In this document: piece after piece, positions 27,433-46,944 of the stretch | Position numbering within the stretch: position 1 is the first letter of the stretch | Layout of the letters: the number at the start of each line of letters is the position of its first letter | NCBI RefSeq assembly: GCF_030530745.1 | Contig: NZ_JAUMUI010000016.1 | Coordinates: 1-57,199, forward strand | DNA: 57,199 bases | Origin: Neisseria sp. | GTDB lineage: Bacteria > Pseudomonadota > Gammaproteobacteria > Burkholderiales > Neisseriaceae | Direction: 5' to 3' | Made by a program: the position numbers and the translations under genes | Notes under the pieces: generated by a model | The model's database searches: none | The model's input: the letters and a program-made list of their open reading frames with translations, nothing else | Told to the model about the DNA's origin: nothing

Positions 27433-27584
27433 GGCTTGTCCTTACGGGTAAATTTCAGACGGCATTGTACTGAATATCGGCAAGGTGCGGGGGCTTTCTT
27501 GGCGTCCCGGTGCCGGGTATGCCGCAGGCGGCTGTTTGTAAAGGCTACGGCAGAATATTTACTTATAATCTTTCCAAGCATAGA

Positions 27585-27603
27585 ATAAATAAAAATTATT
27601 ATC
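27585..27603 (+). promoter_or_regulatory. possible Fur-like box upstream of the outer-membrane receptor gene
   Basis: An AT-rich stretch ending AAATTATTATC agrees with the 19-base Fur consensus at about 13 positions by hand count, better on the right half. It lies 18 bases before the start codon. AT-rich DNA gives such matches by chance, so this is weak. Confidence 0.25.
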
Positions 27604-27620
27604 TTTATATCGGAAAGGTA

Positions 27621-29540
27621 ATGAGAAGGGTTTTATGGATGCTTGCTGCGGGTTGTGTGGCGCAGGTGTCGGCGCAAGGGCAGGAACAGTTGGCTGATGC
27701 CGGCGAAATCAGATCCTTGAAAGAGTTTGCTCCGCCCAAACCGGTTACGCCCGATGCGGCTCAGGGCTATATGCCCGAAAACCAGTTCGACCGAACCGAC
27801 CGCAGCGGTTACTATTTTGTAACCGGCAATATCGACAAAGCCATGCGCCCGGTGAAGGCCAACAGTGGCTTTTACGGCCGCAGCTTCTACAATTCGGCCT
27901 CAATCCAGGCGCGCGGTGCGCGGTTTTACGGCAACGCCAATATCAACCACACCAAGGCCGGCGACTATAAAGACGGCGGGGGCAGTAAAGCCGGCTGGGG
28001 CTACAGCCGTTTCAACCAAGCTTTGGTGTTGGGTTTTGTGCCGTCTGAAAACCAGGAATACCGCCTGACTTATCTGCACGACCGTATTGATGACGACAAA
28101 CAGCCGCAGTTTGCCAACGATGCGGTTAAAACCGACCGCAATATCGTCCGGATGGGTGCGCGCTGGGGCGGTTCGGATTTAAACAACACCCTGCGCGCTG
28201 AGGCGGGCTTTACCCGCCTGGACCGCCGCGCCGACAATTATTCGCTGCGAAGCGGCGGTACCAACCGGATATTTGTCGGCCTCGACCGCAAAATCTTCAA
28301 TTTTTCCCTCAAACACGATTATGGCAGGGGAAAATTCCACAATGCTTTCATTGCGGGCTACCAGCACGACAGCCACGACGGCATCCGCCATACCCGTACC
28401 GACGTGCTTGACTTTCCCAATGCCTACCGTTTCGCCGGCATCCGTACCGGCAGCTACCGCCTTTCCGATACGCTGGCCTACCGTTTCGACAACCGCCACA
28501 AACTCGGTTTGGGGTTGGGCTATGAATACAATGATGCCGAGGTGCGCAAAAATACTGCGCAACTGCCCAACCCTGCAAACCCTGCCCTGGCTTTCGCCAG
28601 TGCACAGCAGGTGTGGCGGGATTATTACGGTTTCGACTTTAACGGCAAAGTTCGCCGCGAGGCCTTTTCGGGGGAGCTGAAATATGATTTCACCCCGTCG
28701 GAACTGCACAAATACAGCATCAGTGCCGCCCATATCGAACGCATCGGCGACAACACCGAACGTTTCAATTCGCTGGCCTCGTTGGTATACGACCGCCGCA
28801 GCGGCGCGCGGCGCAATCAAAATCCTGCCGCCGCCATGGTCGGAAACCCGTTGCTCAAGCCGGAAGGGCATAACTTTGTCAGAATCAGCGCCGATCTGAA
28901 AAACAGCGCCTACAACGGCTACATGGATTCCCTCATGGGACGGGGCTGGAATGCCGGCGGCTCGCTGATGTACGACAAAGTGAAAAACCTGATTATCTTC
29001 GACCGTGCGCGCGGCCAGGCCGGTGTGGCGGCAGACAACGGCGGCATCATTGTACGCAATGCGGATGCAGACATCGTGTCGGCCGATATTTATGCCCGCT
29101 ACAATTTCAATCCGCGCTGGGCGGCCGGGGCAAAAGCGTTTTACCGTTACGGCCGCAATGCGGACGACGGCAGGCCGCTCTACCAGATACGGCCGTTCGA
29201 GCTGGCCGTGCAGGCCGACTATAAAAATTATTTCCGCTACGGAAGCTACAGCATGGGTGCGGCAGGGCGTTATGTGGCGAAGCAGGCGCGCGGCGATTTC
29301 GACACGGCGTCGGGTCTCGGCATCGACCGGCGCGAGGCTGCCAAAAGCTTTGCAACGGCCGATGTTTATGCTGCGGTGAACGTGAAAGACCGCTACGGCC
29401 TGCGCGCGGGTGTCAACAATATTTTCAACCGCAGGTATGCCGACTTTATCAGCGGCGATCATGTGGAAGCGCTCGCGCCCACACGGGTGGTATATGCGCC
29501 CGGGCGGACTTATTGGCTGAGCCTGCATGCGGCGTTTTAA
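27621..29540 (+). CDS. NosA/OprC-like outer membrane receptor with reduced plug
   Basis: The 639-residue protein has a signal peptide (about 1-18, ending VSA) and a long beta-barrel ending in aromatic F (SLHAAF). The barrel carries patterns shared with TonB-dependent copper receptors: GDYKDGGGSKAGWGYSRFN near residue 115, LLKPEGHNF near 415, VRNADADIVSADIYARYNF near 475, LYQIRPFEL, GVNNIFNRRYADF and PGRTYWLSL. Fewer than about 70 residues lie between the signal and the first barrel-like strand, so a full plug domain (usually 120-150 residues) is missing or cut down, and no TonB box is evident. The mature part has no Cys. The start at 27621 follows GGAAAGGTA. First gene of an apparent operon with an ABC importer. 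Confidence 0.75.
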   Translation: MRRVLWMLAAGCVAQVSAQGQEQLADAGEIRSLKEFAPPKPVTPDAAQGYMPENQFDRTDRSGYYFVTGNIDKAMRPVKANSGFYGRSFYNSASIQARGARFYGNANINHTKAGDYKDGGGSKAGWGYSRFNQALVLGFVPSENQEYRLTYLHDRIDDDKQPQFANDAVKTDRNIVRMGARWGGSDLNNTLRAEAGFTRLDRRADNYSLRSGGTNRIFVGLDRKIFNFSLKHDYGRGKFHNAFIAGYQHDSHDGIRHTRTDVLDFPNAYRFAGIRTGSYRLSDTLAYRFDNRHKLGLGLGYEYNDAEVRKNTAQLPNPANPALAFASAQQVWRDYYGFDFNGKVRREAFSGELKYDFTPSELHKYSISAAHIERIGDNTERFNSLASLVYDRRSGARRNQNPAAAMVGNPLLKPEGHNFVRISADLKNSAYNGYMDSLMGRGWNAGGSLMYDKVKNLIIFDRARGQAGVAADNGGIIVRNADADIVSADIYARYNFNPRWAAGAKAFYRYGRNADDGRPLYQIRPFELAVQADYKNYFRYGSYSMGAAGRYVAKQARGDFDTASGLGIDRREAAKSFATADVYAAVNVKDRYGLRAGVNNIFNRRYADFISGDHVEALAPTRVVYAPGRTYWLSLHAAF

Positions 29541-29543
29541 GGC

Positions 29544-29577
29544 TTTCAGACGGCCTGCATGAAAATGCCGTCTGAAA
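29544..29577. repeat. facing DUS pair between receptor and binding-protein genes
   Basis: TTTCAGACGGC and GCCGTCTGAAA form 11-bp arms around a 12-base loop, in the 54-base gap. It could weaken read-through from the receptor gene into the ABC genes. One DUS is AG-type and the other AT-type. Confidence 0.7.
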
Positions 29578-29594
29578 CAATATAGGAGAAAAAA

Positions 29595-30566
29595 ATGCAC
29601 AGACGCAGATTTTTAAAATGGGGCGCGGCACTGGCGGCGGCAGGCGTTCTGCCTCCGGTATCCGCCGCCAGAGCCAAAGAGGCGTTTACCGTATACGGTG
29701 CACCTGCACTGCCGACCATGACCATCGCCGTAGCCGCCCTGCAGGGCAGGCTGGCGAAGCAGGCGGCGGTGTCGGTAAAAACCTGGCGTTCGCCCGACCA
29801 GCTGCGGGCGGGCGTGGCGGGCGGCACGTTCAAGGTAATGATGAGCCCGAGCAACGTGGGCGTTAATCTGCGCAACCAGGGGCGCAAAGTCGGCATGGTG
29901 AACATTCTCACCAACGGCATCATTCAGCTGGTGGGCAAGGGTAAAGCCATTGCGCATCCGCGCGAATTGGCGGGAAAGCGGGTGATTATCCCGTTTAAAA
30001 ACGATATGCCCGACATTGTGTTCCAAGCCTTGCTGAAAAAGCTGGGTATCGATGCGCGTCAAGTGCACATCACCTATGCGGCGACGGGCGCGGAAGCCGT
30101 GGGGCTGTTTTTGAGCCGCAACTTTGATGCCGCGCTGGTGCCCGAGCCGCTGGCCGCCGCCGCCGTATTGCGCGGCAAAACCATGGGGGTGAACGTGGTG
30201 CGCGGTTTCGACGTTGCCCGCATGTGGGGGCAGGCTTTCGGCACCCGGCCGGTGATTCCGCAGGCGGGGCTGATTGCCGATACGGACTTCTACCGCGCCA
30301 ACAAAGCCAAATTCGACCTCTTCCACCAAGACTTGAAAAACGCGCTGGTGTGGATAAACGCCAACCGCCAAAGCGCGGCGGAAATCGGCAAAAACTATCT
30401 GGCCGCGCCCGTGCCCGCGATTGTTTCGGCCATTCCCCACGCCAACCTTACGGTAACCAAAGGCTCGGAGCTGAAAAACGGCATCATGGCGTTTTATGAA
30501 GAACTGATGCGTTTCAACCCCAGGCTTTTAGGTGGCAGACTGCCCGACGACGGCTTCTTTTTATAA
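29595..30566 (+). CDS. Tat-exported ABC substrate-binding protein (NMT1/SsuA-like)
   Basis: The 323-residue protein begins MHRRRFLKWGAALAAAGVLP, a twin-arginine signal with RRRFLK, cleaved near residue 25-29 (VSA or ARA). The mature part has the two-lobe pattern of the nitrate/sulfonate/thiamine-precursor class: TIAVAALQGRLAKQ, then NILTNGIIQLVGKG, LAGKRVIIPFKNDMPD, AATGAEAVGLFLSRNFDAALVPEP. The ligand is not evident. Tat export suggests folding or cofactor loading before transport, which is unusual for this class. It has a GGAGAAAAAA ribosome site. A GC hairpin after the stop could keep this gene's message in excess over the permease. Confidence 0.82.
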   Translation: MHRRRFLKWGAALAAAGVLPPVSAARAKEAFTVYGAPALPTMTIAVAALQGRLAKQAAVSVKTWRSPDQLRAGVAGGTFKVMMSPSNVGVNLRNQGRKVGMVNILTNGIIQLVGKGKAIAHPRELAGKRVIIPFKNDMPDIVFQALLKKLGIDARQVHITYAATGAEAVGLFLSRNFDAALVPEPLAAAAVLRGKTMGVNVVRGFDVARMWGQAFGTRPVIPQAGLIADTDFYRANKAKFDLFHQDLKNALVWINANRQSAAEIGKNYLAAPVPAIVSAIPHANLTVTKGSELKNGIMAFYEELMRFNPRLLGGRLPDDGFFL

Positions 30567-30576
30567 GGACTTCCGG

Positions 30577-30598
30577 CCGCCCGTACAAAAACGGGCGG
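30577..30598 (+). terminator. GC-rich hairpin between binding-protein and permease genes
   Basis: CCGCCCGT, loop ACAAAA, ACGGGCGG form a perfect 8-bp stem 11 bases past the stop, with no T run. It is more likely an mRNA-stability or attenuation element within the operon than a full terminator. Confidence 0.5.
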
Positions 30599-30641
30599 GG
30601 CGGCTTTCAGACGGCCTTTTCGCAAAAACGGAACGGTAACG

Positions 30642-31439
30642 ATGATTAAAACCGACAAAATACGCAAACGCCAGGCGGCAGTGTTTTATGTGGCCGACTA
30701 TCTGTGGGGCGGCTTCGCCGGCTTGGGTGTGGCCATGATGGCGGTGGCGCTGTGGTCGTGGGGCAGCACCTTGGCCGGTGAATTTATACTGCCCGCACCG
30801 ACCGGCGTATTCACACAGGCCGTTGCCCTGCTGCGGGATTACGAAACGGGCGGGTTGGGTGTTTCGCTGTGGAGGGCGGCCGCCGGTATCGGCGTATCGC
30901 TGCTGCTGGGTACGGCGGCAGGGCTTTTGGCAGGCAGTTTTCAGACGGCCATGGCCATGCTGAAACCCGTGATTACCGTTTTATTGGCGATGCCGCCGAT
31001 TATCTGGGTGGTGATGGCGCTGTTTTGGTTCGGTTTCGGCAGCCCGAGCGTACTGTTTACCGTGATCATTATCGTTACGCCGCTTACTTTTGCAAGTGCG
31101 GCGGCAGGCATGGCGGGCATCAACAGGCAGTACGGGGAAGTGTTTGACGTTTACCGCACGGGCCGTCTGAAAAAAATCCGCTATTTCTACCTGCCCCACC
31201 TTACCGGCTACATGATTTCCAGTGTGGGCGTGGCAGTGGCGATGGGGGTGAAAGTGGTGGTGATGGCGGAACTTCTGGGAGCGGAGGAGGGGGTGGGCGC
31301 GCGTATCGCCGATGCCCGGACGATGCTGGAAACTTCTACGGTGATGGCCTATGTGTGCCTGATAGTCGCGCTGGCGGCGCTGTTCGAATATCTGGTAACC
31401 AAGCCTTTGGAAATCCTGTTTATGCCGTGGAGGAGGTAA
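30642..31439 (+). CDS. ABC transporter permease (NitT/TauT type)
   Basis: The 265-residue inner-membrane protein has about six spans and the cytoplasmic EAA-like loop GMAGINRQYGEVFDVYRTGRLKK (near 168-190), where the coupling helix contacts the ATPase. Patterns such as LPAPTGVFTQAVALL, MPPIIWVVMALFWFGFGSPS and GVGARIADARTMLET are typical of SsuC/TauC-type permeases. Two DUS are read in frame here, giving SFQTAM and GRLKK. The stop overlaps the ATPase start by one base (TAATG), so the two are translationally coupled. Confidence 0.88.
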   Translation: MIKTDKIRKRQAAVFYVADYLWGGFAGLGVAMMAVALWSWGSTLAGEFILPAPTGVFTQAVALLRDYETGGLGVSLWRAAAGIGVSLLLGTAAGLLAGSFQTAMAMLKPVITVLLAMPPIIWVVMALFWFGFGSPSVLFTVIIIVTPLTFASAAAGMAGINRQYGEVFDVYRTGRLKKIRYFYLPHLTGYMISSVGVAVAMGVKVVVMAELLGAEEGVGARIADARTMLETSTVMAYVCLIVALAALFEYLVTKPLEILFMPWRR

Positions 31440-32131
31440 TGTTGGAAATGTCGCATGTGCGGTTCGACATCCTGCGCGATGTCGTGGTACGCGATTTCAG
31501 CCTCACCCTGAGGCCGGGCGAAGTGAAAACCCTGTTCGGCCCCAGCGGCTGCGGCAAAACCACGGTTTTGCGCCTGATCAGCGGCCTAGAAACGCCCAAG
31601 ACAGGCCTTATCCGCAACGGTTTTAAAAAAACCGGCTTCCTGTTTCAGGAAAACCGGCTGTTGGAAAACCTCAGTGCGATGCAGAACATTACCGTTTTTA
31701 TGGAAAAAGCCGATGAAGGCGCAGTGGCGGAATTGGCTGCCGAGGTGGGATTGGGCTCGGGCGACTTGAACAAATACCCGGCAGAACTGAGCGGCGGCAT
31801 GGCCAAGCGGGTGGCTTTTCTGCGGCTTTTACTCAGCGGCTGCGGCCTGGCCCTGCTCGACGAACCTTTTGTGGGGCTCGACAGGGATCTGCGCGATATT
31901 CTGGCCGGAATGCTGACAGAAAAAATCCGCCGCCGCGAACTGGCCTGCGTACTGGTAACGCACGACCGTTTCGAAGCGGTGCGGCTCAGCCACGAAATCA
32001 TGCTGCTCGCCCCCAAAGGCATGGCCGTTTGCCGGCGGGTGTGTTTGAACGAAGATTTGGCAGATCGCGATACGGCCTATGAAACAAGGGTGGCGGCGGA
32101 GCAGTTTCACGGAATCCGCTATTATGAATAA
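31439..32131 (+). CDS. ABC transporter ATP-binding protein
   Basis: The 230-residue ATPase has Walker A GPSGCGKTT near residue 34, a Q-loop region FLFQENRLL, the signature LSGGMAKR, Walker B LALLDEPFVGLD and the H-loop VTHDRFEA. It powers the adjacent permease. The start at 31439 is chosen because a GGAGGAGG ribosome binding site lies just upstream, within the permease gene, and the protein matches the family from here; an open frame runs further upstream but is not needed. The last 8 bases overlap the NnrS gene. Confidence 0.9.
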   Translation: MLEMSHVRFDILRDVVVRDFSLTLRPGEVKTLFGPSGCGKTTVLRLISGLETPKTGLIRNGFKKTGFLFQENRLLENLSAMQNITVFMEKADEGAVAELAAEVGLGSGDLNKYPAELSGGMAKRVAFLRLLLSGCGLALLDEPFVGLDRDLRDILAGMLTEKIRRRELACVLVTHDRFEAVRLSHEIMLLAPKGMAVCRRVCLNEDLADRDTAYETRVAAEQFHGIRYYE

Positions 32132-33221
32132 TTTCTTCAGCCACCCCATGCGCGGCTTTTTTACCGCCGCAGCCCTGTTCGGCATTCTCGGCAGCGCCTG
32201 TTTTTTCGTCAGCCGCGATGCTGTTACGGTGCACCGCCTGTTTTTCCTCAACCTGCTGCCTGCCTGTGCCTACAGCGGCTTTCTGCTGACCGCCATGCCA
32301 AGTTGGACGGATTACCGCGGCAGTATTGCCGGCGCGGCCAAAATGCTCGGCGGCACCGTTGCGGCGGCATGGGCGGTTTCGTTTTTCAATGTACGGGCGG
32401 GTGCGGCTCTGCTTGCCTGCTTGTGGCTGATGCTGTTGTTTTTTTGCGCCCGTATGGTTTTTTTGGGCAAAGACCGCCGCAATTTTTCTGTTTTAATGCT
32501 GCTCTTTTTGTTGGCCGCGTTTCAGACGGCCTATGCTTTCAGCCTCGACGGCCGCTTTCTCAGGGCGCAGCTGCACCTGAACATTGCCGCCACCGTGCTT
32601 ATCGGTTTCCGTATCAGCATCGTGATGGGGGCGGAAGCATTGAAAGAATGCCGTCTGAAAGACCCGCTGTTTGTTCCCAACGCCGTTTATAAAAACATGG
32701 CGGTTGTTTTTCTTGCCGCCTATGCCTTTATCGAGCTGCTGCTGCCTGCCGAAGCGGCGGGCTATGCCGCTTTGGGCTGCGGCTGCATCCTGCTGGCAAG
32801 GCTCAAAGAGCTGCACCACCGTGAGCTGCTGCGCAAACACTATCTGGCTCTGTATTACGCCGTGCAGCTTTCCGGCGCATGCGGTTATTTGTGGCTGGGT
32901 GTCGGAAAAATCCGCATGATGCCGGATACCCCGCCGCTGCACCTGATTGCTTTGTGCTGCATGTTCGGCACTGTTTTGCTGGTTTTTATTACGGCGGGTT
33001 TGCGCCACAGCAGCTTCGTTCGCCTCGACTACCCCAAACTTTCCCGCGCAGCGTTCGCCTGTCTGGCCGCCGCCGCCGTATCGCGCACGCTGCTGTTCGG
33101 GCACGGCGCATGGTTTTATCTTTATCTGCCCGCGCTGTTCCTTGCCGCTGCCTTTACCCTCTACCTGGCCGATTTTGTGCCGGTTTTTAAAAACCGGCCG
33201 TTTTACGGCGATCCTGAGTAA
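32124..33221 (+). CDS. nnrS: NnrS family membrane protein
   Basis: The 365-residue protein is almost entirely hydrophobic, with about ten to twelve spans and the NnrS pattern: HPMRGFFTAAALFGIL at the start, LPACAYSGFLLTAMPSWTDY, LHLNIAATVLIGFRISIVMG and GLRHSSFVRLDYP. NnrS proteins are haem- and copper-containing inner-membrane proteins found with denitrification genes and linked to protection from nitric oxide stress. Several His residues sit in or near spans. The start overlaps the ATPase gene by 8 bases, so it belongs to the importer operon. In-frame DUS give AFQTAY and CRLKD. A DUS-pair terminator directly follows. Confidence 0.87.
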   Translation: MNNFFSHPMRGFFTAAALFGILGSACFFVSRDAVTVHRLFFLNLLPACAYSGFLLTAMPSWTDYRGSIAGAAKMLGGTVAAAWAVSFFNVRAGAALLACLWLMLLFFCARMVFLGKDRRNFSVLMLLFLLAAFQTAYAFSLDGRFLRAQLHLNIAATVLIGFRISIVMGAEALKECRLKDPLFVPNAVYKNMAVVFLAAYAFIELLLPAEAAGYAALGCGCILLARLKELHHRELLRKHYLALYYAVQLSGACGYLWLGVGKIRMMPDTPPLHLIALCCMFGTVLLVFITAGLRHSSFVRLDYPKLSRAAFACLAAAAVSRTLLFGHGAWFYLYLPALFLAAAFTLYLADFVPVFKNRPFYGDPE

Positions 33222-33272: not shown

Positions 33273-36200
33273 TTACAGCCGCACTTTCTCGATGCCGCCG
33301 TTGTTGGCTTTTTCAACGAAGTCGTTCTGCCAGTTGTCGCCGAGGATATGCTTGGCCATTTCCACTACGATGTAGTCGGCGGGCAGTTGGTTGTCGTCGG
33401 TGTAGCGGCTTAAGCCTTGCAGGCAGGCGGGGCAGGAGGTGAGCATTTTCACCGGCCCGCCCTGCGGCAGTTGGTTGAGGTTTTTCTCGATTTCTTCCTG
33501 CTTGCGGAATTTCACCTGCGTGGCGATGTCGGGCCGTTTGACGGCAAACATGCCGCTCTCACCGCAGCAGCGGTCGCTCAACACCACTTCTTTGCCCATC
33601 AGCTCGCTGGTCATTTTGGCGGCGTTCATGGTTTTGATCGGGCTGTGGCAGGGGTCGTGGTAGAGATATTGCTGACCGCTTATGCCGTCGAGCTTGATGC
33701 CTTTTTCGAGCAGGAATTCGTGGATGTCGATGATGCGGCAGCCGGGGAAAATATCCTCGAAGCGGTATTTTTCGAGCTGGTCGTAGCAGGTGCCGCAGCT
33801 CACCACCACGGTTTTGATGTCGAGGTAGTTTAAGGTGTTGGCCAAACGGTGGAACAGCACGCGGTTTTCGGTGGTCATCTGCTCGGCTTTGGCTTTGTTG
33901 CCGCCGGCATCCTGCGGATAGCCGCAGCAGAGGTAGCCGGGCGGCAGCACGGTTTGCACGCCGGCGTGCCACAGCATGGCTTGGGTGGCCAGCCCCACTT
34001 GGCTGAACAGGCGCTCGGAGCCGCAGCCGGGAAAGTAAAACACGGCTTCGGCGTCTTCGCCGGTTTGCGGGTTGCGGATAATCGGCACGGTTTTGGCGTC
34101 TTCGATGTTCAGCAGCGCGCGGGCGGTTTTAATCGGCACGTTGCGCGGCAGCGGGCGGTTGATAAAGTGCACTACCTGCTCTTTTATCGGGGCTTTGCCG
34201 GTGGTGGCTTTGGGGGCGGCTTTCTGGCGGCATGCGCCGATGTGGAGTTTTTTGCCCCATTGGTAGCCTATGTTTTGCAGTTTGAAACCGGCTTCCACCA
34301 CGCCTTTGCGCAGAATATTGATGGTGCGCGGGTCGGTGGCGTTGAGAAAGGCCATGCCTGCGGCCACGGCGGGGTTGAATTTGCGTTTGCCGGATTTGTG
34401 CAGGTAGTTGCGGATGGCTACGGTAACGTCGCCGAAGTCGATGTTGACGGGGCAGGGTTTGACGCAGCGGTGGCAGACGGTGCAATGGTCGCCCACGTCG
34501 TTGAGTTCGTCGAAATGTTTGACCGACACGCCGCGGCGGGTTTGTTCTTCGTATAAAAACGCTTCGGTTAACAGGCCCACGCCGAGGATTTTATTGCGCG
34601 GGCTGTAGAGCAGGTTGGCGCGGGGAACGTGGGTGCTGCACACGGGTTTGCATTTGCCGCAGCGCAGGCAGTCTTTCACCGATTCGGCGATGGTGCCGAG
34701 GGCGGACTGCTCCATAATCAGCGATTCCACGCCCAATAATTCGAACGAAGGCGTGTAGGCGTTGCGCAGATCCGAGCCTTTCATCAGCTTGTGGCGGTTG
34801 AAGCGGCCTTGCGGGTCGGTTTTGGCTTTGTAGTCCCAGAAGGGCTGCATTTCTTCGTCGGTGAGGAATTCGAGTTTGGTGATGCCGATGCCGTGTTCGC
34901 CGGAAATCACGCCGCCTAAGCTGCGGGCGATGGCCATGATGCGCTCCACGGCTTTGTGGGCCGTCTGAAGCATGTCGTAATCGTCTGAATTAACAGGGAT
35001 GTTGGTGTGCACATTGCCGTCGCCGGCGTGCATGTGCAGCGCCACAAACACACGCGATCGCACCACTTTGGCATGGATTTTTGCCAAGCCCTGCATGATT
35101 TTGGTGTCGGTTTTGCCGCTGAAGATTTCAGACAGGGGTTTCATCACGTCGGCTTTAACCGATACGCGCAGGCGGAAATCGCGGAAGGCGGTAAAGCTGC
35201 TTTCGCTGTCGCTCGCTTCGGGTGCGGCGTGCACGGCGGCGCCGTAGCGCTGTTTATAGCCGGCCAGCGGCGCGTCGAGATGGGCGAGCAGCCATTGCCA
35301 GCGTTCCTGCACGGCCTCTACATGCGCGAGGGCGTGGTTGGCGCGTTCGCCCAACAGTTCGCTTTTGGGCAGGTCGGTGCCCATCTGCTCGACGGGCAGG
35401 TTGCCTTGCAGGTATCGGATCAGCGCTTCGCAGAGGGCGAGTTTGTTTTTAATCGACAATTCGATGTTGATGCGTTCGATGCCGTCTGAATACTCGCCCA
35501 AGCGTTCCAACGGAATCACCACGTCTTCGTTGATTTTGAAGGCGTTGGTGTGTTTGGCGATGGCGGCGGTGCGGCTGCGGTCGAGCCAGAAGGTTTTGCG
35601 CGCTTCGGGGGTAACGGCGGTAAAACCTTCGCCGTCGCGCGCTTGCGCCAGCTTCACGATGTGGTCGGCCGCTTCGTTTACGGCAGCTTCGTCGTCGCTG
35701 ACGATGTCGGCAATCAGCACCATTTTCGGGCGGCCCCTGCCCGCCGCTTTGGTGGCGTAGCCGACGGCGCGCACATAGCGCCAGTCGAGGTGTTCCAAGC
35801 CGGCCAGTTGCACGCTCTCGTGGCCGAGCAGGTAGTCGCGGATTTCCACAATGGAAGGCGTGGCGTTGGCGACGGTGCCGAAAAATTCCAAACAGATGGT
35901 GCGGATGTGTTTGGGCATGGTGTGCAGCACAAAGGCGCAGCTGGTGATGATGCCGTCGGTGCCTTCTTTCTGCACGCCGGGCAGGCCGCTTAGGAATTTG
36001 TCGGTAACGTCTTTGCCGAGGCCGACTTTGCGGAATTGCCGGCCGGGGATTTCCAAACGCTCGGTTTTCACGGTGTTCAGGCCGTCTGAAGTGAGCGTGT
36101 GCACGTCGAATATCGCGGTGTCTTCGTCGTGGATTTTGCCGAAGTTGTGGCGCACGCGCTCGATTTTCAGCCATTCGCCCTGCGGGTTGACCATTTTCCA

Positions 36201-37100
36201 ATAGGCGAGGTTGTCCAGCGCCGTGCCCCACAGCACCGCTTTTTTGCCGCCGGCGTTCATCGCTACGTTGCCGCCCACGCAGGAAGCGTCGGCGGAAGTG
36301 GGGTCGACCGCAAACACGAGTTTGGCGGCGGATGCTGTTTCTTCCACCCGCCGCGTAACCACGCCGGCGCCGCAGTGGATAATCGGATGCGTGCCCTCGA
36401 GTCCGGGCAGTTCCACATATTGCACGCCGTTGTGTTTGTCGAGTTTTTCGGTGTTGATCACCGCGCTCATCGCATCGAGCGGCACCGCGCCGCCGGTGTA
36501 GCCGGTGCCGCCCCCTCGCGGAATAATGGTCAAATCCAGCTCGATTAAGGCGCGCACCAGCGGAGCGATTTCGTCTTCGCTGTCGGGGTTGACCACTACA
36601 AACGGATATTCCACGCGCCAGTCGGTGGCGTCGGTAACGTGGCTCACGCGGGCGAGGCCGTCGAACATGATGTTGTGTTTGCGGGTGATTTTGCTCAAAC
36701 GCGCCAGAATCTGCGCCCGTTTTTGGCGGGTGGTTTCGAAGCTTTTCTCAAAACGGGCCACGGCCGCTTCGGCTGCTTCAAGCAGTTCGGCCACCTGCTC
36801 GTTGTTGTCGCGCCGTTTTTGGATTTCTCCCAAACGGTGCCGCATTTCACCTACCAATGCGGCCAGGCGGGCAGGGTGGTCGAGTAAGTCGTCGACCAGA
36901 TAGGGGTTGCGCACTACCACCCAGATGTCGCCGAGCACTTCAAACAGCATGCGCGCCGAACGGCCGGTGCGGCGTTGGCTGCGCAATGCCTGCAATATGT
37001 CCCAAGCGTGCCCGTCCAGCAGGCGGATAACGATTTCGCGGTCGGAATAAGAGGTATAGTTGTAAGGGATTTCGCGGATGCGTTGGAGGGCGGCAGTCAT
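33273..37100 (-). CDS. large FAD-linked oxidoreductase with Fe-S and CCG domains (DUF3683; D-2-hydroxyacid dehydrogenase type)
   Basis: At 1275 residues this is one of the longest genes here. Residues 1-160 form the DUF3683-type N-terminal extension. Next comes a PCMH-type FAD-binding domain ([29 protein letters not shown] near 200) and an FAD-linked oxidase C-terminal domain ([29 protein letters not shown]). A ferredoxin-like segment follows with [11 protein letters not shown] and [13 protein letters not shown], then cysteine-rich CCG domains ([25 protein letters not shown]). Such proteins oxidise D-lactate or related 2-hydroxyacids and pass electrons onward. The substrate cannot be told from sequence. 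It probably supplies electrons to the quinone pool. It is a single gene with a DUS pair upstream. Confidence 0.88.
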
Positions 37101-37539: not shown

Positions 37540-38544
37540 TCATACAGTTTCTATTCTGCCCGTTGCCGTTACCAGCCATGCCTTCAAACCGGGGAGGGCG
37601 GCGGCGGTTTTTTCAACGGCGGTTTTGTCCATTACTGAAAATGCGGTAGACAGTGCGTCGGCAACGGCGGCATCGGCAGCCGTTACGCTGACGCTGCGGT
37701 AACGCGGGCTGCTGCTGCCGGTGTGCGGGTTGAAAAGGTGGGTGAACCTGCCCGCTTCGTCCATGTGCGTGCCGTAGCCGCCAGAAGTGGCAAGGGCTTG
37801 GTTTTGCAGCTCAATGTTCAGCAATACGGCGGTTTCGTCATCAGGGTTGCGGATGCCGGCCTGCCATGTGCGGCGGCGTGCGGTATCCAAGGCGCGGATT
37901 TCGCCCAAGTCCACCAGCGCCTGTTCCAGCCCGGCATTGCGCAGCATATCGGTGATGCGGTCGGTGATGTAGCCTTGGGCGATGCCGTTGAACGACAAGG
38001 CCATGCCGGGCTTGTCAAGGCGGACGCTGCGGCTGTCGAATCCGACGGCGTTGAAATCCGCCAGTGTCAGGGCAGCCGCCAAATCGGCGGACGGCGGGGC
38101 GGACGTGCTTTGCGGATGGCGGGCGAAGTGCTTGGCGTAAACGTTCCACAGGGGCTGTATGCCGGGGTTGAACGCGCCCTGCGTGAGCGCGTGGATGCTG
38201 CGGCTGAGGCTGAGCAGGGCTAAAAAGTCGGCGGGCGGGTTGTTCAGGCGGCCTGTTTGGTTCAGGTGCACCAGCAGGCTGTCGTCGCGGTAGAGGCTGA
38301 AGGTTTTTTCTAAACGCGCTATTTCGGCCACGGCTTTGACAATCAGGTTTTCGGCAAAACGGCGGTCGGGGTGGTAGAGGCGTATTTCGGCACCTGCGCC
38401 CAGCGCGATACCCTGCCAGACTACGGGTTCGGGCAGCGTTTTGCCGGCTGCCGCGCCGTGCCGCCAGACGGAGGGTACGGCGGCAAGGGCTGCGGCTGCG
38501 GCGGTGATGCCGATAAAGCGGCGGCGGGAAAACTTCGTGGTCAT
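37540..38544 (-). CDS. apbE: FAD:protein FMN transferase, Tat-exported (NosX)
   Basis: The 334-residue ApbE-family protein attaches FMN covalently to a Thr of partner flavoproteins in the periplasm. It starts MTTKFSRRRFIGITAAAA, a twin-arginine signal (RRR at 7-9), with the ATG at 38544 after a CGGAGCCG ribosome site. Family motifs are LEKTFSLYRDDSLLVHLNQ, GAFNPGIQPLWNVY, LSFNGIAQGYITDRI, LVDLGEIRALD, ALATSGGYGTHM and TAADAAVADALSTAFSVM. The Gly usually seen in the GGD/GGE FAD site is replaced by L-x-x-G-E here (DLGEI), close to the norm. It ends the nos cluster and most likely flavinylates NosR at T156. Confidence 0.92.
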   Translation of the reverse strand: MTTKFSRRRFIGITAAAAALAAVPSVWRHGAAAGKTLPEPVVWQGIALGAGAEIRLYHPDRRFAENLIVKAVAEIARLEKTFSLYRDDSLLVHLNQTGRLNNPPADFLALLSLSRSIHALTQGAFNPGIQPLWNVYAKHFARHPQSTSAPPSADLAAALTLADFNAVGFDSRSVRLDKPGMALSFNGIAQGYITDRITDMLRNAGLEQALVDLGEIRALDTARRRTWQAGIRNPDDETAVLLNIELQNQALATSGGYGTHMDEAGRFTHLFNPHTGSSSPRYRSVSVTAADAAVADALSTAFSVMDKTAVEKTAAALPGLKAWLVTATGRIETV

Positions 38545-38647
38545 GGTCGGCTCCGTTTTTGGGGAGGGAAGGTTTGTTTGGCGGCAAAAAAAAACCGCAT
38601 CTTCCTTCCTGCCGTTTTCAGACGGCTTCAGAAGGCATTGCCGTTTT

Positions 38648-39142
38648 TTACCTGAAAATATATTCGTCGGGCATTTCGTCGAATGCCACCACCCTGCCGC
38701 CTTTTTCGGCGGCGAATTTCTGCGCCTGTGCTTTGTCGGCAAAGGGCAGTGCGTCTTCCGCGCCCATGCCGCCGATAAAGCCGCTTTCAATCACATAATG
38801 GGCTTTGCGGGCGTCTGTCCAGTGGTTGTCGGCATCGGGCGTGTTCCAGTCGGCCACTTTGCCCATATCGGTTACATAGATTGCGGCAATGCCTTTGGGT
38901 TCTTCGGGCAGCCTGGTGTAGCCGAACATCTGTTTGATGGTGGAAAACCACACCGGTTTTTCGGGGCGGCCGTTTAAGAAAATCTGGGCTTTGGGGCCAA
39001 CGTGTTCGGAAAGGTTCATGGTGCAGTAATGGCCGACGGCTTCGTCGGTAATCTGCTGCGGCGCGGGCGGTGCGGCTTCGGGTCCGCTGCCGCAGGCGGC
39101 CAGAAGCAGGGCTGCCGGCAGCAGGTAAAGAAAAGGTTTCAT
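38648..39142 (-). CDS. nosL: NosL copper-binding lipoprotein
   Basis: NosL delivers Cu(I) for assembly of the NosZ copper centres. The 164-residue product has a lipoprotein signal with lipobox LAAC (C17) and the conserved copper site HYCTMNLSEH (C40, M42), followed by YVTDMGKV-type and FADKAQAQKFAAEKGGRVVAFDEM patterns of the family. The ATG at 39142 follows AAGGAAAACAGA; a longer upstream frame is not supported. It lies between nosY (73-base gap with a DUS) and apbE, the usual place in nosRZDFYLX clusters. Confidence 0.93.
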   Translation of the reverse strand: MKPFLYLLPAALLLAACGSGPEAAPPAPQQITDEAVGHYCTMNLSEHVGPKAQIFLNGRPEKPVWFSTIKQMFGYTRLPEEPKGIAAIYVTDMGKVADWNTPDADNHWTDARKAHYVIESGFIGGMGAEDALPFADKAQAQKFAAEKGGRVVAFDEMPDEYIFR

Positions 39143-39215
39143 TCTGTTTTCCTTTTTTATGTTGGGGCGGATACGGTTTTCAGACGGCCTGAAACGGTGC
39201 ATAAGCCCCGATCCT

Positions 39216-40046
39216 TTAAATCTGCCGCTTCCCGAATACCCATGATGCCAGGACGAAAGGGACGGCAATCCACAATAATTGCGCCGCCAGCAGCACGGGC
39301 CGGCCCAGCGACAGCTGCGAGCTCAACCCCGCCATGCCGGCATACATGGCGGTGTTTTCGTAGCCGGTCAGGTTCAGCAGGCGGTAGATGTCGGCAGGGT
39401 TGAACAGCAGCACGGCTTCCAGCATGGGGGCGGTGATAAGCTGTTTGGTGTCGGCAACCAAAACGCCCAACAGCGCCATATCGAAAATCACCACGAAAAA
39501 CAGCCATACGCCTACGGCAACGCCCGCCGCCGTGCCGCGCTCTTTAACTTTGGCACTGATCAGGTAGCCCATTGCCAGAAAAGCGGCGCCCAGCAGGATG
39601 CTGGCGGCAATCAGCAGCAGAAACGGCTTCCATGCGGCGGGGTCGGATGCGCCGTTTGCCAGTTGCAGTGCGACGCCCGCCAAGCCGTAGCCCGCCCCGG
39701 TGGCTAGTGCGAGCACCGCCAGATGGCCGGCAAATTTGCCCACCAGCACCTGCCCGCGCGAAACGGGGTAGCTCAGCAGCAGCGCCATGGTGCCGCGTTC
39801 GATTTCGCCGATCAGCGCATCGTGGGAAAGCAGCATGGCAATCAGCGGAATCAGGAAAATCGACAGGCTGGAGAGGCTGACCACGGTAACGGTGAGCGGA
39901 TCGGCCTTCACTTCGCCGGCGGGTGCGCTGCCGAGGAAGCCCAGCGACAAGGCCAGCGCGGCCAGAAGGAGCGTGGCGGCCAGCACCCAGCGGTTGCGCA
40001 GGCTGTCGCGGATTTCTTTTGCGGTGATAATCCAAACGGGGTTCAT
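39216..40046 (-). CDS. nosY: NosY ABC-type permease for NosZ maturation
   Basis: The 276-residue inner-membrane protein has about six spans and the ABC-2 permease pattern: ITAKEIRDSLRNRWVLAATLLL at the start, then LIGEIERGTMALLLSYPVSRGQVL near residue 85, and LLFNPADIYRLLNLTGYEN. With NosF and NosD it forms a membrane complex that supports copper-sulfur centre assembly on NosZ. It starts 39 bases after nosF, with a DUS in the gap. Length matches the family. Confidence 0.94.
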   Translation of the reverse strand: MNPVWIITAKEIRDSLRNRWVLAATLLLAALALSLGFLGSAPAGEVKADPLTVTVVSLSSLSIFLIPLIAMLLSHDALIGEIERGTMALLLSYPVSRGQVLVGKFAGHLAVLALATGAGYGLAGVALQLANGASDPAAWKPFLLLIAASILLGAAFLAMGYLISAKVKERGTAAGVAVGVWLFFVVIFDMALLGVLVADTKQLITAPMLEAVLLFNPADIYRLLNLTGYENTAMYAGMAGLSSQLSLGRPVLLAAQLLWIAVPFVLASWVFGKRQI

Positions 40047-40085
40047 GGTGTGCGGTTTCCTTAATTTTCAGACGGCCTGAACCGG

Positions 40086-40976
40086 CTATACGTCTTCGCG
40101 CTTGAGCAGTTCGGCATACATATCGTCCAAGGTCGGCGTGCGGATGTCGATTTGGGCGATATTGTCCATGCCGCCCAAGCCCTGCAACAGCAATGCTTTG
40201 TCTTCCACGCGGCATTGCGCGGTGTGGGTGAGGCCGTCTGAAACCCATTCGGGCGGCATGGCGGCGGGCTGTTTCAGACGCACGGTTACGGTGGCGGGCA
40301 GGCCGCTTTGGGTTTGCAGCTCGTTCATGCTGCCGTCGGCGATTTTGCTGCCGTTTTTCATCACCACGATGCGTTCCGCCCTGCCGTCCAATTCGCCCAG
40401 GGCGTGGGTACTGAGCAGCACGGTGGCGCCTTCCCTGCCCAGCTCGTGCACGATTTCGTAAAACAGCTGCCGCGATGCGGGGTCGAGGCCGGTGGTGGGT
40501 TCGTCGAACAGCAGCACTTTCGGTTTGCCGAGCAGTGCCTGTGCCAAGGCCAGCCGCTGGCGCATTCCTTTTGAATAGGTGCCGACGCGGCGGCCTGCGG
40601 CTTGGGCGATGCCGACGCGTTCGAGCAGGGCGGTGTTTTTGGCGGTGGGCTGTTTTTTCAGCTTGGCGTAAAAATCCAAAGTTTCCCTGCCGGTGAGCGA
40701 GGGGTGCAGCGCCACGGTTTCGGGCAGGTAGCCGGTCTGGCTGCGCACGGCGGCGGCGCGGCGGCCTGCCGCACCGCCGCCCAGCAGCGACACGCTGCCG
40801 GAGTCGGGGCGGATCAGGCCGAGCATCAGTTTGATCAGGGTGGATTTTCCCGCGCCGTTGTGCCCCGCCAGCCCGACGCACTCTCCGGCATTCAGGGTCA
40901 GGTCGACGTTTTTTACGGCAAAGCGGCCGCCGTACTGTTTGCTGACTGCGTTTAAAACAACGTGTGCCGTACCCAT
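40086..40976 (-). CDS. nosF: NosF ABC-type ATPase for NosZ maturation
   Basis: The 296-residue ATPase has Walker A GHNGAGKST (near 38), signature YSKGMRQRLALAQALL, Walker B VLLFDEPTTGLDP and H-loop STHALGE. The C-terminal 80 residues form the accessory domain of this class. It partners NosY and NosD. RBS-like AGGAGCAGC precedes the start. It lies 97 bases after nosD, with one DUS between. An in-frame DUS falls in the C-terminal part (VSDGLTH region). Confidence 0.94.
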   Translation of the reverse strand: MGTAHVVLNAVSKQYGGRFAVKNVDLTLNAGECVGLAGHNGAGKSTLIKLMLGLIRPDSGSVSLLGGGAAGRRAAAVRSQTGYLPETVALHPSLTGRETLDFYAKLKKQPTAKNTALLERVGIAQAAGRRVGTYSKGMRQRLALAQALLGKPKVLLFDEPTTGLDPASRQLFYEIVHELGREGATVLLSTHALGELDGRAERIVVMKNGSKIADGSMNELQTQSGLPATVTVRLKQPAAMPPEWVSDGLTHTAQCRVEDKALLLQGLGGMDNIAQIDIRTPTLDDMYAELLKREDV

Positions 40977-41073
40977 TGCTGCTCCTTGTGTGCCGGTGTT
41001 TTCAGGCTGCAGGCTGCCTTGCGGCAGGCCGTCTGAAAATATTTTGGAAAACGGAATACTGCCATGCCGTTTG

Positions 41074-42351
41074 TCATATTTTTCCCTTCATGGTCCGGTA
41101 GCGCTCGAACGTTTCGTTTTCGGGCGGCACCATCAGCGGTTTGCTGTCGGTTACGCCGCCGGGCAGGATGGCGGGAAACTGCGACTGCGCCCATTTGACG
41201 ATGCTTACGGCAGGGCTGTTCATCAGCAGGCGGGCGGCGGGGGCGCGCCAGACAATCTGGTCGATGATGCCGTTGGGGCGGTAGGCATGATCGCCGAAGC
41301 CGTCGCCGTCGAGGTCGAAGGCGCTGTTGTCGCTCCAATAGTTGCCGCGTCCGCCTTCCGCCCAATCAATGTGGCGGGTGCTGACGTATTTAATCTGGTT
41401 TTGGTTGTTGACAAAGGCGTTGTCGTGAATGGTGTTGCCTTCGGCGGCGGCGGTGAAATGGATGCCGATGGCGCAGGATTCGAAACGGTTGCCGGTCAGG
41501 CGGTTATAGTTGGCGTTATATACGAAAACGCATTTGCCGGCTTTGTCTATCACGTTGCCGCGTATTTCGGAATGGTTGGCATAATTGAGCATCAGCCCCT
41601 GGTTGGTGCTGTTGACGGCGATGTTGTCATTCACTTTCAGCCGTTCGGAAAACATGATGGCGTAGCCGATTTCGTTGCCGTCCGAAAAATTGCCGCTCAC
41701 CTCGCTGTCGTGGGTATACATATAGTGCACGGCGTAGCGCAGTTTGGAAAACCGGTTGCCGCTGAACACGTTTTTGGTGCTGGCGTTGGAAAAAATGCCG
41801 TCGCGCCCCTGAGAAATGTCGTTGCCGATGACTTTGGAGCCGGGCGCGTTCCACACGGTTACGCCGTTGCCGCGCTCGTTGCGGCGCAGTCGGGTGTCGC
41901 CGACAATGGTGTTTTCTTTCACCAGCGCATCGGGCGCGCCGTGCAGGTAGACGCCGACGGAGTTTTCCAGAATATTGTTGTGTTCCACCAGGGCGCGGGC
42001 GGCGCTTTGGTGCAGGTAGACGCCGGCATCCATGGCGGGCAGGCTTAAGCCGGAGCGGGTTACGGTGAGGTTGCGCAGGGTAACGTCGGGCGCGTGCACG
42101 GATACGGTGCGCCCCGTGCGGTCGCCCTCGATTTCGGCGCTCCTGTCGGCAGGCCCCTCAATCGTGAGCGGTTTGCCGATAACGATTTTGCCGGGGTATT
42201 TTCCCGGGGCAAGGCGCAGGATGTCGCCCGCCTGCGCGCGGTCGATAACGCTTTGCAGGCTGCTGCCTGCGGCAACGCTGACCGTGGCGGCGGATGCCGT
42301 CTGAAAGGCGGCGGCGGACAACATCAGGAATATTCGGATGCGGATGTGCAT
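41074..42351 (-). CDS. nosD: NosD periplasmic copper-site maturation protein
   Basis: The 425-residue protein is a right-handed beta-helix of the NosD/carbohydrate-binding (CASH) type, required for building the CuZ centre of N2O reductase. A signal peptide spans residues 1-22 (IRIFLMLSAAAFQTASA), partly encoded by a DUS that reads FQTA. Repeated helix rungs (NNILENSVGVYLHGA, NGVTVWNAPGSKVIGNDIS, NRFSKLRYAVHYMYTHDSEV and so on) fill residues 40-340. The ATG at 42351 is chosen for the signal peptide; no strong ribosome site is seen. A DUS-pair hairpin separates it from nosZ. Confidence 0.94.
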   Translation of the reverse strand: MHIRIRIFLMLSAAAFQTASAATVSVAAGSSLQSVIDRAQAGDILRLAPGKYPGKIVIGKPLTIEGPADRSAEIEGDRTGRTVSVHAPDVTLRNLTVTRSGLSLPAMDAGVYLHQSAARALVEHNNILENSVGVYLHGAPDALVKENTIVGDTRLRRNERGNGVTVWNAPGSKVIGNDISQGRDGIFSNASTKNVFSGNRFSKLRYAVHYMYTHDSEVSGNFSDGNEIGYAIMFSERLKVNDNIAVNSTNQGLMLNYANHSEIRGNVIDKAGKCVFVYNANYNRLTGNRFESCAIGIHFTAAAEGNTIHDNAFVNNQNQIKYVSTRHIDWAEGGRGNYWSDNSAFDLDGDGFGDHAYRPNGIIDQIVWRAPAARLLMNSPAVSIVKWAQSQFPAILPGGVTDSKPLMVPPENETFERYRTMKGKI

Positions 42352-42437
42352 GGTGTCGGTTTTTTTATTTACGGATAGGGCGTATGCTTTCGCTGCCGGT
42401 ACTGCAAAACCGCCCGTTTCAGGCTGCTTTGCACCGA

Positions 42438-42475
42438 AGGCCGTCTGAAACGCCGTTAAACGGTTCAGACGGCCT
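42438..42475 (-). terminator. DUS-pair hairpin between nosZ and nosD
   Basis: AGGCCGTCTGAA and its complement pair around an inner CCGT/ACGG stem, 11 bases past the nosZ stop. It could reduce transcription into nosDFYL relative to nosRZ. Confidence 0.7.
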
Positions 42476-42485
42476 CTTTGGTGCG

Positions 42486-44462
42486 TTATTTCGGTTTCAC
42501 AATCATCTGGCCCGACATTTCCATATGCAGCGCGTGGCAGAACCACTGGCAGTAATACCAGTGCACCCCGGGGCGGTCGGCGGTGAAGGTTACCGAGGCG
42601 GTGGCCTGCGGGCCGATTTCCATGGCGATGCCGTAGCCTTCGAGCGTGAAGCCGTGGGTGAGGTCTTCGATGGTTTCCGTGTTGGTAACGTACACGGTTA
42701 CCTCGTCGCCCAGTTTCACTTCAAACTGCGGCACACTGAACACAGGCGCGACGGCGGTCATGTATACGCGCACTTTGTTGCCGTCGCGGATAACGTTTGC
42801 GGCACTCTCCAGCTTCACGCCGTCTTTTTCGGCCTGCTTCACCGCATCTTCCCACATCCACGGGTCTTCGCGGTTCCACGTTTTCAGGGGCTTCACCTTG
42901 GAGGCGGCCACCAGCAGCATATCGTGCGGTTCGGCAAAGCTCGGGCCGTCGTGCACCAGCTTCATTTCGTCGCCGGAAATATCGATGAGCTGGTCGTTTT
43001 CGGGTTTTAAGGGGCCTACGTTCAGGAAACGGTCTTTCGAGAATTTGTTCAGCGACACCAGCCATTTGCCGTCGGCCTCTTTGGTTTCGCCCATGGTGGT
43101 GTGGTTGTGGCCGGGCTGGTAGTGCACGTCGAGCTTCTGAACGATGTAGTCGCCTTTTTTATCCTGATTCTTATAGGCCTCAATGGCTTTGGCGATGTTC
43201 CATTTCACCATCTGGCTGTCGATAAACAGCGTGGTGTAGGCATTGCCGCGACCGTCGAAGGCGGTATGCAGCGGCCCCAGACCCAGCTCGGGTTCTGCCA
43301 CGACCACGTCGCGCTCTTTGATTTTGCTGGCAAACAGATCGTCGAGCCTGTGTACGTCCAGCACGGTAACGGTGGGCGAAAGCTTGCCGTTGAGCATGAT
43401 GTAGTTGCCGTCGGGAGAGGCGTTGCAGCCGTGCGGCGAGTTGGGCACGGGAATGTAGCGGGTGTATTTGGAGTTGGCTTCGGCGCGGCCGTCCAACACT
43501 TTCACACCGCCGATTTCTTTGAAATCGCCGTTTTTAATGCCTTCTTCAATGGCGGCAATATTGAACACCACGCACCAGTCCTGCTCGTTGGCCGAGGCTT
43601 CGGTAACGGTAACGCCTTTTTCGGAGTTGTAGCAGGTGGCAAACGAATATTTGCCCTGATAGTCGGCATCGCCGTTGTCGAGGTTGCCGTCGACCATCAC
43701 CTGCCAGGCCACTTCCATGGTTTCGCCGTCTACCGCCGTGTAAACCGCCCACCAGTTTTTCTTGGGGTCGTCCAAAAGGGTGCCGTTATTGGGCACAGGC
43801 ACGATATGCTCGCCGTTGGCAAACACATAGCCCGTTTTCGGATAACGCTGCGGACGCAGGCCGTGCACGCCGGAAACATTGGGGATTTCCAGAATTTTGT
43901 CGGTTTTCATCACATCGCAGCGGATGCGCGCCACACGGTTGTTGGCTTTGTCGTTCACATACACATAGCGGCCGTCGTAGGTTTGATCGGTAAACGACAT
44001 GTGCGGGTGGTGCAAATCGCCGTTGGGCATCACCGGCTGGCCGGTTTTTCTCAGGTATTCGCGGGTTTCGGGCGTGAGGTTGGCATTGAGGATTTTGCGG
44101 CTCTCATTGGTGCGCCCCCAACCGGTGGCACTGCACATGTTGAACACGGGGATGCGCAGCAGTTCGCGCATGGAGGGCACGCCCAAAACACGCAGCTCGC
44201 CGGTTTGGCCGCTGGAGTTGAAAGCGTAATACTGGTCGAGCTCACCCGGCCCCACATGATAAGACTGGCCGCCCGCCGCACCGCCTGCTTTGGCCGCGCC
44301 CGACGCGCCCGATGCCGCGCCGCCTTCGCCGCTGCTGCCGGAGCAGCCCGCCAGCCCCAAAAGGCCGGCACCCGCCAAACCCGCGCCAGATACTGCGGCC
44401 GTACCTAAAAACGATCGCCGGCTCAAGCCGACCGGATCTGGTTTCTCTTTGTTTTCTGACAT
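42486..44462 (-). CDS. nosZ: nitrous oxide reductase, Tat signal plus lipobox
   Basis: NosZ reduces N2O to N2. The 658-residue protein is a clade I type: a twin-arginine motif SRRSFLG (R15, R16), a seven-bladed propeller with CuZ histidines in [37 protein letters not shown] and EPHDM, and a C-terminal cupredoxin with the CuA ligands C638, W640, C642, H646 and M649. Unusually the Tat signal ends in a perfect lipobox LAGC (C40), followed by about 25 Gly/Ala/Ser-rich residues, so the enzyme is predicted to be lipid-anchored. An AGGAGAG ribosome site precedes the ATG. It follows nosR by 84 bases. Confidence 0.96.
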
Positions 44463-44546
44463 TTCAACTCTCCTGAGTTAGTGGGAAAATTCCGGCGGCC
44501 TTTCAGACGGCCTGCCGTAACGGATGAAACGGCTTGTTTTTCCGTA

Positions 44547-46868: not shown

Positions 46869-46895
46869 AACGTCCCCATTACCCGATGCTTTCAA

Positions 46896-46944
46896 ATATG
46901 TACATTATATGAATCTTTGTTGGCATTTGTTTGATTTAAATCAA
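46896..46944 (-). promoter_or_regulatory. FNR-dependent class II promoter of nosR
   Basis: TTGATTTAAATCAA at 46931-46944 is a perfect FNR box. On the minus strand a perfect TATAAT (46909-46904) follows, with 31 bases between the two centres. That places the box at about -41.5, the classic site for FNR activation at low oxygen, with transcription starting near 46896. Confidence 0.9.

Follow-up and report, generated by a model that had tools for sequence, protein, structure and literature searches.

A conserved operon linking a predicted plug-free OprC-type barrel and an ABC importer to NnrS in Neisseria and Campylobacterota

In this study, we analysed 57,199 nucleotides of Neisseria sp. DNA (GCF_030530745.1, contig NZ_JAUMUI010000016.1, positions 1-57,199, forward strand), a stretch that we call the window. 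It contains five + strand genes in a row, which encode an outer membrane receptor, a periplasmic binding protein of the twin-arginine translocation (Tat) type, the permease and ATPase of an ATP-binding cassette (ABC) importer, and NnrS (Table 1). A first-pass annotation had described this arrangement from the sequence alone, and coordinates and family models confirmed the five consecutive genes, the Tat signal, the ABC importer, NnrS and both gene overlaps. The Tat signal model PF10518 scored 27.3 bits on the binding protein (cut-off 22.7), the BPD_transp_1 and ABC_tran models exceeded their Pfam cut-offs for the permease and the ATPase, and NnrS is a clear member of its family of nitric oxide protection proteins (PF05940, 134.7 bits, cut-off 28), here as the last gene of an importer operon. 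The overlaps are exact, with one base shared by permease and ATPase and eight bases shared by ATPase and NnrS. Because the same five parts recur in Neisseria, Campylobacterota and one alphaproteobacterium, the genes are, as judged by comparing sequences, a real and conserved operon to which the receptor belongs, and the receptor is not a truncated gene. The original idea of one conserved transport operon tied to NnrS holds across phyla.

The receptor resembles the OprC/NosA copper receptors in its barrel family, matching the copper receptor model TIGR01778 from profile position 143 of 637 to the end, but it differs from them in having neither a plug nor the CxxxM and HxM motifs, in failing the family cut-off (152.5 versus 472.45 bits), and in its adjoining binding protein, which is mostly twin-arginine. 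Since TIGR01778 is matched from position 143 only and below cut-off, no Pfam model matched in the Pfam scan, and the best solved relative is OprC, with profile comparison agreeing, the plug domain is absent and not just poor, which goes beyond the plug-poor receptor first described. Alignment with full OprC types leaves a gap where the plug should stand, and in an AlphaFold model of low confidence (mean predicted local distance difference test score 58.6, predicted template modelling score 0.57) all 22 strands of at least 8 residues lie from residue 78 onward, with little structure before it. A plug encoded elsewhere was considered and rejected for the window's genome, in which no stand-alone plug was found and all four Plug matches sit in open frames of 716-765 amino acids (aa); when five further genomes were scanned, one (G670) had Plug matches in 165- and 490-aa frames.

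Structures of OprC place the copper site in CxxxM of the plug and HxM of the barrel. These motifs are kept in all eight full-length Neisseriaceae OprC types in our alignment, whereas 16 of 16 plug-free receptors compared lack both the plug region with CxxxM and an HxM at the corresponding position. The plug-free receptors show features of their own: behind the signal peptide, a motif near K-x-F-x-PP-x-P and ENQFDR is common to the eight that were aligned, and nine sequences have well over 100 invariant residues. In the barrel tree, all but one of the 17 plug-free barrels group together (support 100) beside the full-length OprC types, in a clade that spans two phyla; the alphaproteobacterial plug-free barrel is unplaced on a long branch.

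The inner part of the system is of the same class as SsuABC, TauABC and NrtABC in its binding protein, permease and ATPase, but it lies far below the equivalog cut-offs and, unlike these importers, is linked to NnrS, to an outer membrane barrel and to Fur- and FNR-type boxes. For the binding protein, two NMT1 models narrowly missed their cut-offs (24.0 versus 24.7 bits for PF13379, and 20.2 versus 20.5), and neither SsuA_fam (34.9 bits, cut-off 163.5) nor a taurine model (20.3, cut-off 304.25) reached its own. The binding-protein profile matched structure 3hn0 with an E value of 5.6e-10.

We found the binding protein in 67 of 298 Campylobacterota genomes (E 1e-20) at 72 places, and all 72 loci were examined. 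A tree of 96 binding proteins, from which the Neisseriaceae loci L071, L072 and L073 were left out, splits into two deep clades, Tat and Sec; a twin-arginine start, recognised by pattern, is present in 43 of 45 Tat-clade loci and in 0 of 27 of the sister clade. Gene presence at each locus was counted in a six-frame pass, using models of plug, barrel and NnrS that had themselves been derived from members of this set of loci. On this basis, the 45 Campylobacterota loci of the Tat clade have a plug-free receptor nearby in 40 cases (7 in two frames) and a plugged one in none, together with the permease in 40, the ATPase in 39 and NnrS in 39, the six without NnrS being five second copies and one locus cut by a contig end. 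None of the 27 Campylobacterota loci of the Sec clade has a plug-free receptor; 11 have a plugged one and 9 a porin-like barrel of about 320 aa, and 26 have NnrS, which in two lies on the opposite strand. Two of the Sec-clade NnrS proteins were checked against Pfam. The outer membrane part thus varies, and NnrS stays as the importer's partner. At the loci where the porin-like barrel precedes the binding protein instead of a receptor (L148, L183-L185, L189, L191, L193, L195, L196), all six barrels scanned match PF13557.

The eight-base overlap of ATPase and NnrS is kept in all 38 Tat-clade Campylobacterota loci that the script could read (7 of the 45 it could not) and in four of four Neisseriaceae tested, the window included. 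Importer and NnrS are one unit. An extra gene separates ATPase from NnrS in several other Neisseria; at L061, L064, L068 and other Neisseria loci it encodes a membrane protein of about 221 aa, of CadD type by eye. Receptor and binding protein are adjacent in most loci, even in four that are without the usual ABC genes and NnrS. In the second copies (L138, L161, L163, L164, L165), FecB/IsdE-like, FecCD, ATPase and methyltransferase genes replace the usual ABC genes and NnrS, and four of the five have a plug-free receptor; these families were tested in L138 and judged by gene size in the others.

Within Neisseriaceae, the binding protein was matched in 28 of 84 genomes at E 0.001, and the 23 genomes with E 5.2e-75 or better were taken as carriers, while the plug-free receptor was found in 14 of 84, one of which (G023) holds it in two frames. 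Carriers include the commensals N. polysaccharea and N. elongata, as well as N. viridiae, N. bergeri and one N. gonorrhoeae strain with broken receptor and nnrS. Two Neisseriaceae metagenome-assembled genomes (MAGs) from deer stomachs also belong here, as do two Campylobacter MAGs, of which one came from a roe deer omasum. The 23 Neisseriaceae loci have the receptor or a piece of it in 15 and NnrS in 19; of the other four, two regions end before NnrS, one lies on a short contig and one is without ABC genes, and for the N. elongata region that ends early NnrS is present on the longer locus L083. Broken copies were seen in single Neisseria genomes (L065, L072, L080), with the binding protein interrupted in G022 and G016 and the receptor and nnrS in G023. 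Among Pseudomonadota the importer is rare, occurring in 10 of 378 genomes (E 1e-40) even with those of the window and one other Neisseria included. NnrS is present in 6 of 10 other, non-Neisseriaceae Pseudomonadota loci, and one of the four without it is truncated by the end of its contig. The complete five-gene set, in unchanged order, is present in one alphaproteobacterium (L218), whose receptor carries a proline-rich N-terminus and no plug. In another (L216), the importer is accompanied by haemerythrin, NnrU and two NnrS-like genes, divergent from a nor-type cluster.

In the binding-protein tree, 19 of 20 Neisseriaceae sequences lie within the Campylobacterota portion; the pair from deer groups with Campylobacter L205 (support 100), the Neisseria set forms a separate branch (99), and L204, also from Neisseriaceae, groups with gammaproteobacterial copies. 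Because the Neisseriaceae proteins nest among Campylobacterota on separate branches, the tree fits at least two transfers between phyla. No viral carriage of the system was found in a scan of viral contigs.

Control sites were predicted with consensus sequences. A Fur-type box just downstream of the -10, with 11-13 matches of 14 and at positions -24 to -32, was found in all 14 Neisseriaceae receptor promoters, or 8 of 8 distinct ones, versus 3 of 90 distinct controls. Because the window's genome has 110 Fur-type sites per strand at the score of the window's box (32 for the reversed pattern), the single site is weak, and it is the conservation that counts. Among 53 distinct Campylobacterota promoters, 20 have an FNR-type box (9 or 10 matches of 10), in a set that includes some loci, such as L205, L136, L157 and L158, for which the start had been placed at the binding protein; among the controls, which were not reduced to distinct promoters, the count is 8 of 141 (p 1.5e-7). 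In the Sec clade, an FNR-type box abuts a Fur-type box at one fixed spacing in 16 of 27 loci, compared with 0 of 45 Tat-clade loci and 0 of 141 controls, in a count that scanned every gene of the system per locus against a single promoter for each control gene. For NssR, Neisseria NsrR and Irr-type boxes there was no consistent excess, in promoters whose start was placed at an unrelated ATPase in L205, L135, L158 and L099 and lay too far upstream in the window.

The operon was first described as lying beside the nos cluster. The nos genes are indeed in the window, but on the opposite strand, where the cluster including its own FNR-type box spans 37540-46944; its nearest gene (ApbE-like) is 4.3 kb from the operon, with a 3.8-kb gene (33273-37100) between. 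Two genes of the cluster, at 39216-40046 and 38648-39268, had no NCBIfam match. Co-occurrence with nosZ, a check proposed with that description, proved real: nosZ is over-represented among carriers in Campylobacterota (49/67 versus 40/231 others, p 3e-17) and in Neisseriaceae (18/23 versus 13/61, p 2.5e-6), both p values being overstated by the relatedness of the genomes, and is present in 5 of 9 other Pseudomonadota carriers. The system thus does not occur mainly in genomes without denitrification genes, as a majority of carriers have nosZ. A strict link was nevertheless rejected, since 18 of 67 Campylobacterota and 5 of 23 Neisseriaceae carriers are without nosZ. The distance between operon and nosZ varies, from about 25-28 kb in G017, G048, G031 and G013 to more than 1 Mb in G022, G033 and G044. 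Nor was qNor (PF22085) supported as the common factor (cNor was not searched). It was present in 7 of the 51 genomes examined: among carriers without nosZ, in 2 of 18 from Campylobacterota and 3 of 5 from Neisseriaceae; among carriers from other Pseudomonadota, in 2 of 9; and among Campylobacterota that do not have the binding protein, in 0 of 19. Both deer genomes of Neisseriaceae are without nosZ and without qNor. Given the carriers without nosZ, and an FNR-type box that in the window stands before nosR but not before this operon, the proposed dedication to denitrification and N2O reductase is unsupported.

Table 1. Predicted features of the operon and the nos cluster in the window
Feature	Position	Strand	Basis or remark
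Sigma-70-like promoter, TTTACT-17-TAGAAT	27558-27586	+	Consensus scan, 9/12; 5 such sites in region versus 2.7 expected
Fur-type box just downstream of -10	27590-27604	+	11/14 to TGATAATNATTATCA; 2 such sites in window versus 0.71 expected
Plug-free OprC/NosA-type outer membrane barrel, 639 aa	27621-29540	+	TIGR01778 from position 143; alignment with full OprC types; structure model
Tat-type periplasmic binding protein, NMT1/SsuA-like, 323 aa	29595-30566	+	PF10518 over cut-off; PF13379 and PF09084 just under
ABC permease, 265 aa	30642-31439	+	PF00528
ABC ATPase, 230 aa	31439-32131	+	PF00005, sequence; 1-base overlap with permease
NnrS, 365 aa	32124-33221	+	PF05940; 8-base overlap with ATPase
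ApbE-like	37540-38790	-	
nos-cluster ABC ATPase	40086-40976	-	
NosD	41074-42546	-	
NosZ, Tat-type	42486-44462	-	
NosR	44547-46895	-	

What, then, might the operon import? NnrS is reported to shield the iron pool against dinitrosyl-iron complexes (PMC4601167, PMC9246220, PMC5710167) and to lower these complexes (PMC4601167, PMC9246220). Because of the Fur-type sites, the FNR-type sites in many Campylobacterota and this protection of the iron pool, iron-related uptake under nitric oxide (NO) is the most economical reading. We therefore favour, tentatively and with a little less than half of our confidence, a mobile importer for an iron-related small ligand that works with NnrS to keep the supply of usable iron under NO. 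The ligand may be an iron chelate, a haem-like compound or a chelator, which would pass the open OprC-derived barrel to the Tat-exported binding protein and on to the ABC importer. The barrel, having no plug, would need no TonB. NnrS would act alongside the importer in the same process, as its published protection of the iron pool from nitrosyl-iron complexes suggests, so that the iron supply stays usable in the presence of NO, in many carriers at low oxygen. Fur would bind the Fur-type boxes and a protein of the FNR/DNR family the FNR-type boxes. The presence of the operon across phyla, the steady NnrS, the kept overlap and both kinds of box support this reading, and neighbours in single relatives were also counted for it: a ferritin gene between receptor and binding protein (L101), a FUR-family gene adjoining the operon (L144), and the haemerythrin, NnrU and nor-type cluster of L216.

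Several observations weigh against an iron supply kept usable under NO. The window's own Fur-type box (11/14) is the weakest of the Neisseriaceae set, and in Campylobacter Tat-clade promoters a Fur-type box of at least 12/14 occurs in 2 of 28, under the control rate of 35 of 141. Because no FNR-type box within 3 mismatches lies at 27433-27620 before the window's operon, while an exact one precedes nosR (46931-46944), low-oxygen control is unsupported in the window. The unequal scanning behind the composite-box count, the Campylobacterota controls left unreduced and the counting models built from the set they were applied to belong here as well. Finally, the nearest named relatives of the binding protein are nitrate-, sulfonate- and taurine-type proteins, and 11 aligned binding proteins from both clades share no invariant His, Cys or Met beyond the start.

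Those relatives would suit an importer of an iron-free organic anion, such as a sulfonate, a nitrate-like compound or another nutrient, in which iron and oxygen only time its production. The binding protein of NMT1/SsuA/TauA type and the permease of NtrB/TauC/SsuC type favour this, all of them below cut-offs except the general permease model. By itself, however, an organic anion leaves unexplained the Fur-type and FNR-type control, the constant NnrS and the TonB-receptor types of the sister clade (hemin and CirA-like, below cut-off), and we regard it as unlikely, if worth keeping in view. The first-pass annotation had suggested a copper complex, and copper for N2O reductase, copper nitrite reductase or NnrS itself would be in keeping with the OprC/NosA barrel, with the excess of nosZ among carriers, with a CopD-like neighbour, below cut-off, in L141, and with NnrS having been named a cuproprotein (PMC6769254). 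Nevertheless, because the OprC copper motifs are missing in 16 of 16 plug-free receptors, copper has lost its main support; the control sites are Fur-like (copper-regulator boxes were not searched), the carriers without nosZ speak against it, and the binding protein has no invariant Cys, His or Met beyond the start. Copper as the likely ligand is thus unsupported, and we consider it improbable.

Uptake of haem or a haem precursor, with the haem protein NnrS as the user of the ligand, would fit the four of five scanned plugged receptors of the sister clade that best match haem/haemoglobin-type models (the fifth CirA, all below cut-off) and the second copy L138, which combines receptor and binding protein with FecB/IsdE-like, FecCD permease and methyltransferase genes; genes of matching size occur in four other loci. 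No haem-specific gene was noticed adjoining the operon, though none was searched for, and the binding protein lacks an invariant His. We hold haem to be distinctly improbable. That the receptor is a decaying TonB receptor whose plug was simply lost seems hardly credible to us. It is split between two frames in G023 and likewise at 7 of 40 Tat-clade loci (L132, L134, L157, L169, L172, L178, L181), some of them possibly assembly errors, and is missing in several Neisseria that keep the remaining genes, but a single supported clade that spans two phyla holds 16 of 17 plug-free barrels, the N-terminal motif and well over 100 residues in nine sequences are conserved, and the other 33 of the 40 loci have it in one frame. 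A more specific mechanism, which we think very improbable, would make the plug-free barrel and the Tat-exported binding protein a TonB-independent device for recovering nitrosylated iron: the folded binding protein would dock at the periplasmic mouth and replace the plug as gate and ligand acceptor, the module would regain nitrosyl-iron complexes lost under NO, and NnrS would strip NO at the inner membrane.

NnrS has long been known, and to our knowledge there is no agreed mechanism for it. Several proposals appear in passages of PMC5710167, PMC4601167 and PMC9246220. Its gene has been placed in NsrR, NnrR, DNR or NorR regulons and sometimes in an operon with nsrR or hmp (PMC1274295). As a fixed, overlapping partner of one importer with iron-type control sites, NnrS is given a testable setting for its role. 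The conserved TonB-receptor barrel without a plug raises the questions of how a wide pore stays shut and whether TonB is dispensable, and the sister clade, where that position is held by a plugged receptor or a small porin-like barrel, permits a direct comparison. The system resembles TonB-dependent iron and haem uptake in its predicted Fur-type box and its layout of receptor, binding protein, permease and ATPase, but differs in the NMT1-like binding protein and in that a plug-free or porin-like barrel can replace the receptor. In the open-access literature, to the extent that its texts were available, we recognised no paper describing an NnrS-importer operon, subscription papers being mostly outside this scope. 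One candidate for the same locus, NMB1880/NMB1882, comprises fetB2 and a TonB receptor and adjoins an AraC-like regulator; from this context, and not from sequence comparison, it was judged to be different.

A few neighbours in single relatives may be recorded here. A 272-aa protein of no Pfam or NCBIfam family (L099:6902-7720) lies directly behind a receptor and binding-protein pair that has no adjoining ABC permease, and in a Campylobacter MAG a small cupin (PF07883; L087:9855-10178) lies between receptor and binding protein. At L141:9017-10522, a Crp-family regulator, the CopD-like protein and a 127-aa protein that resembles a truncated haemoglobin by eye (no Pfam match) adjoin the operon, and a Crp-family gene is also near the operon in L132, L147, L180 and L201.

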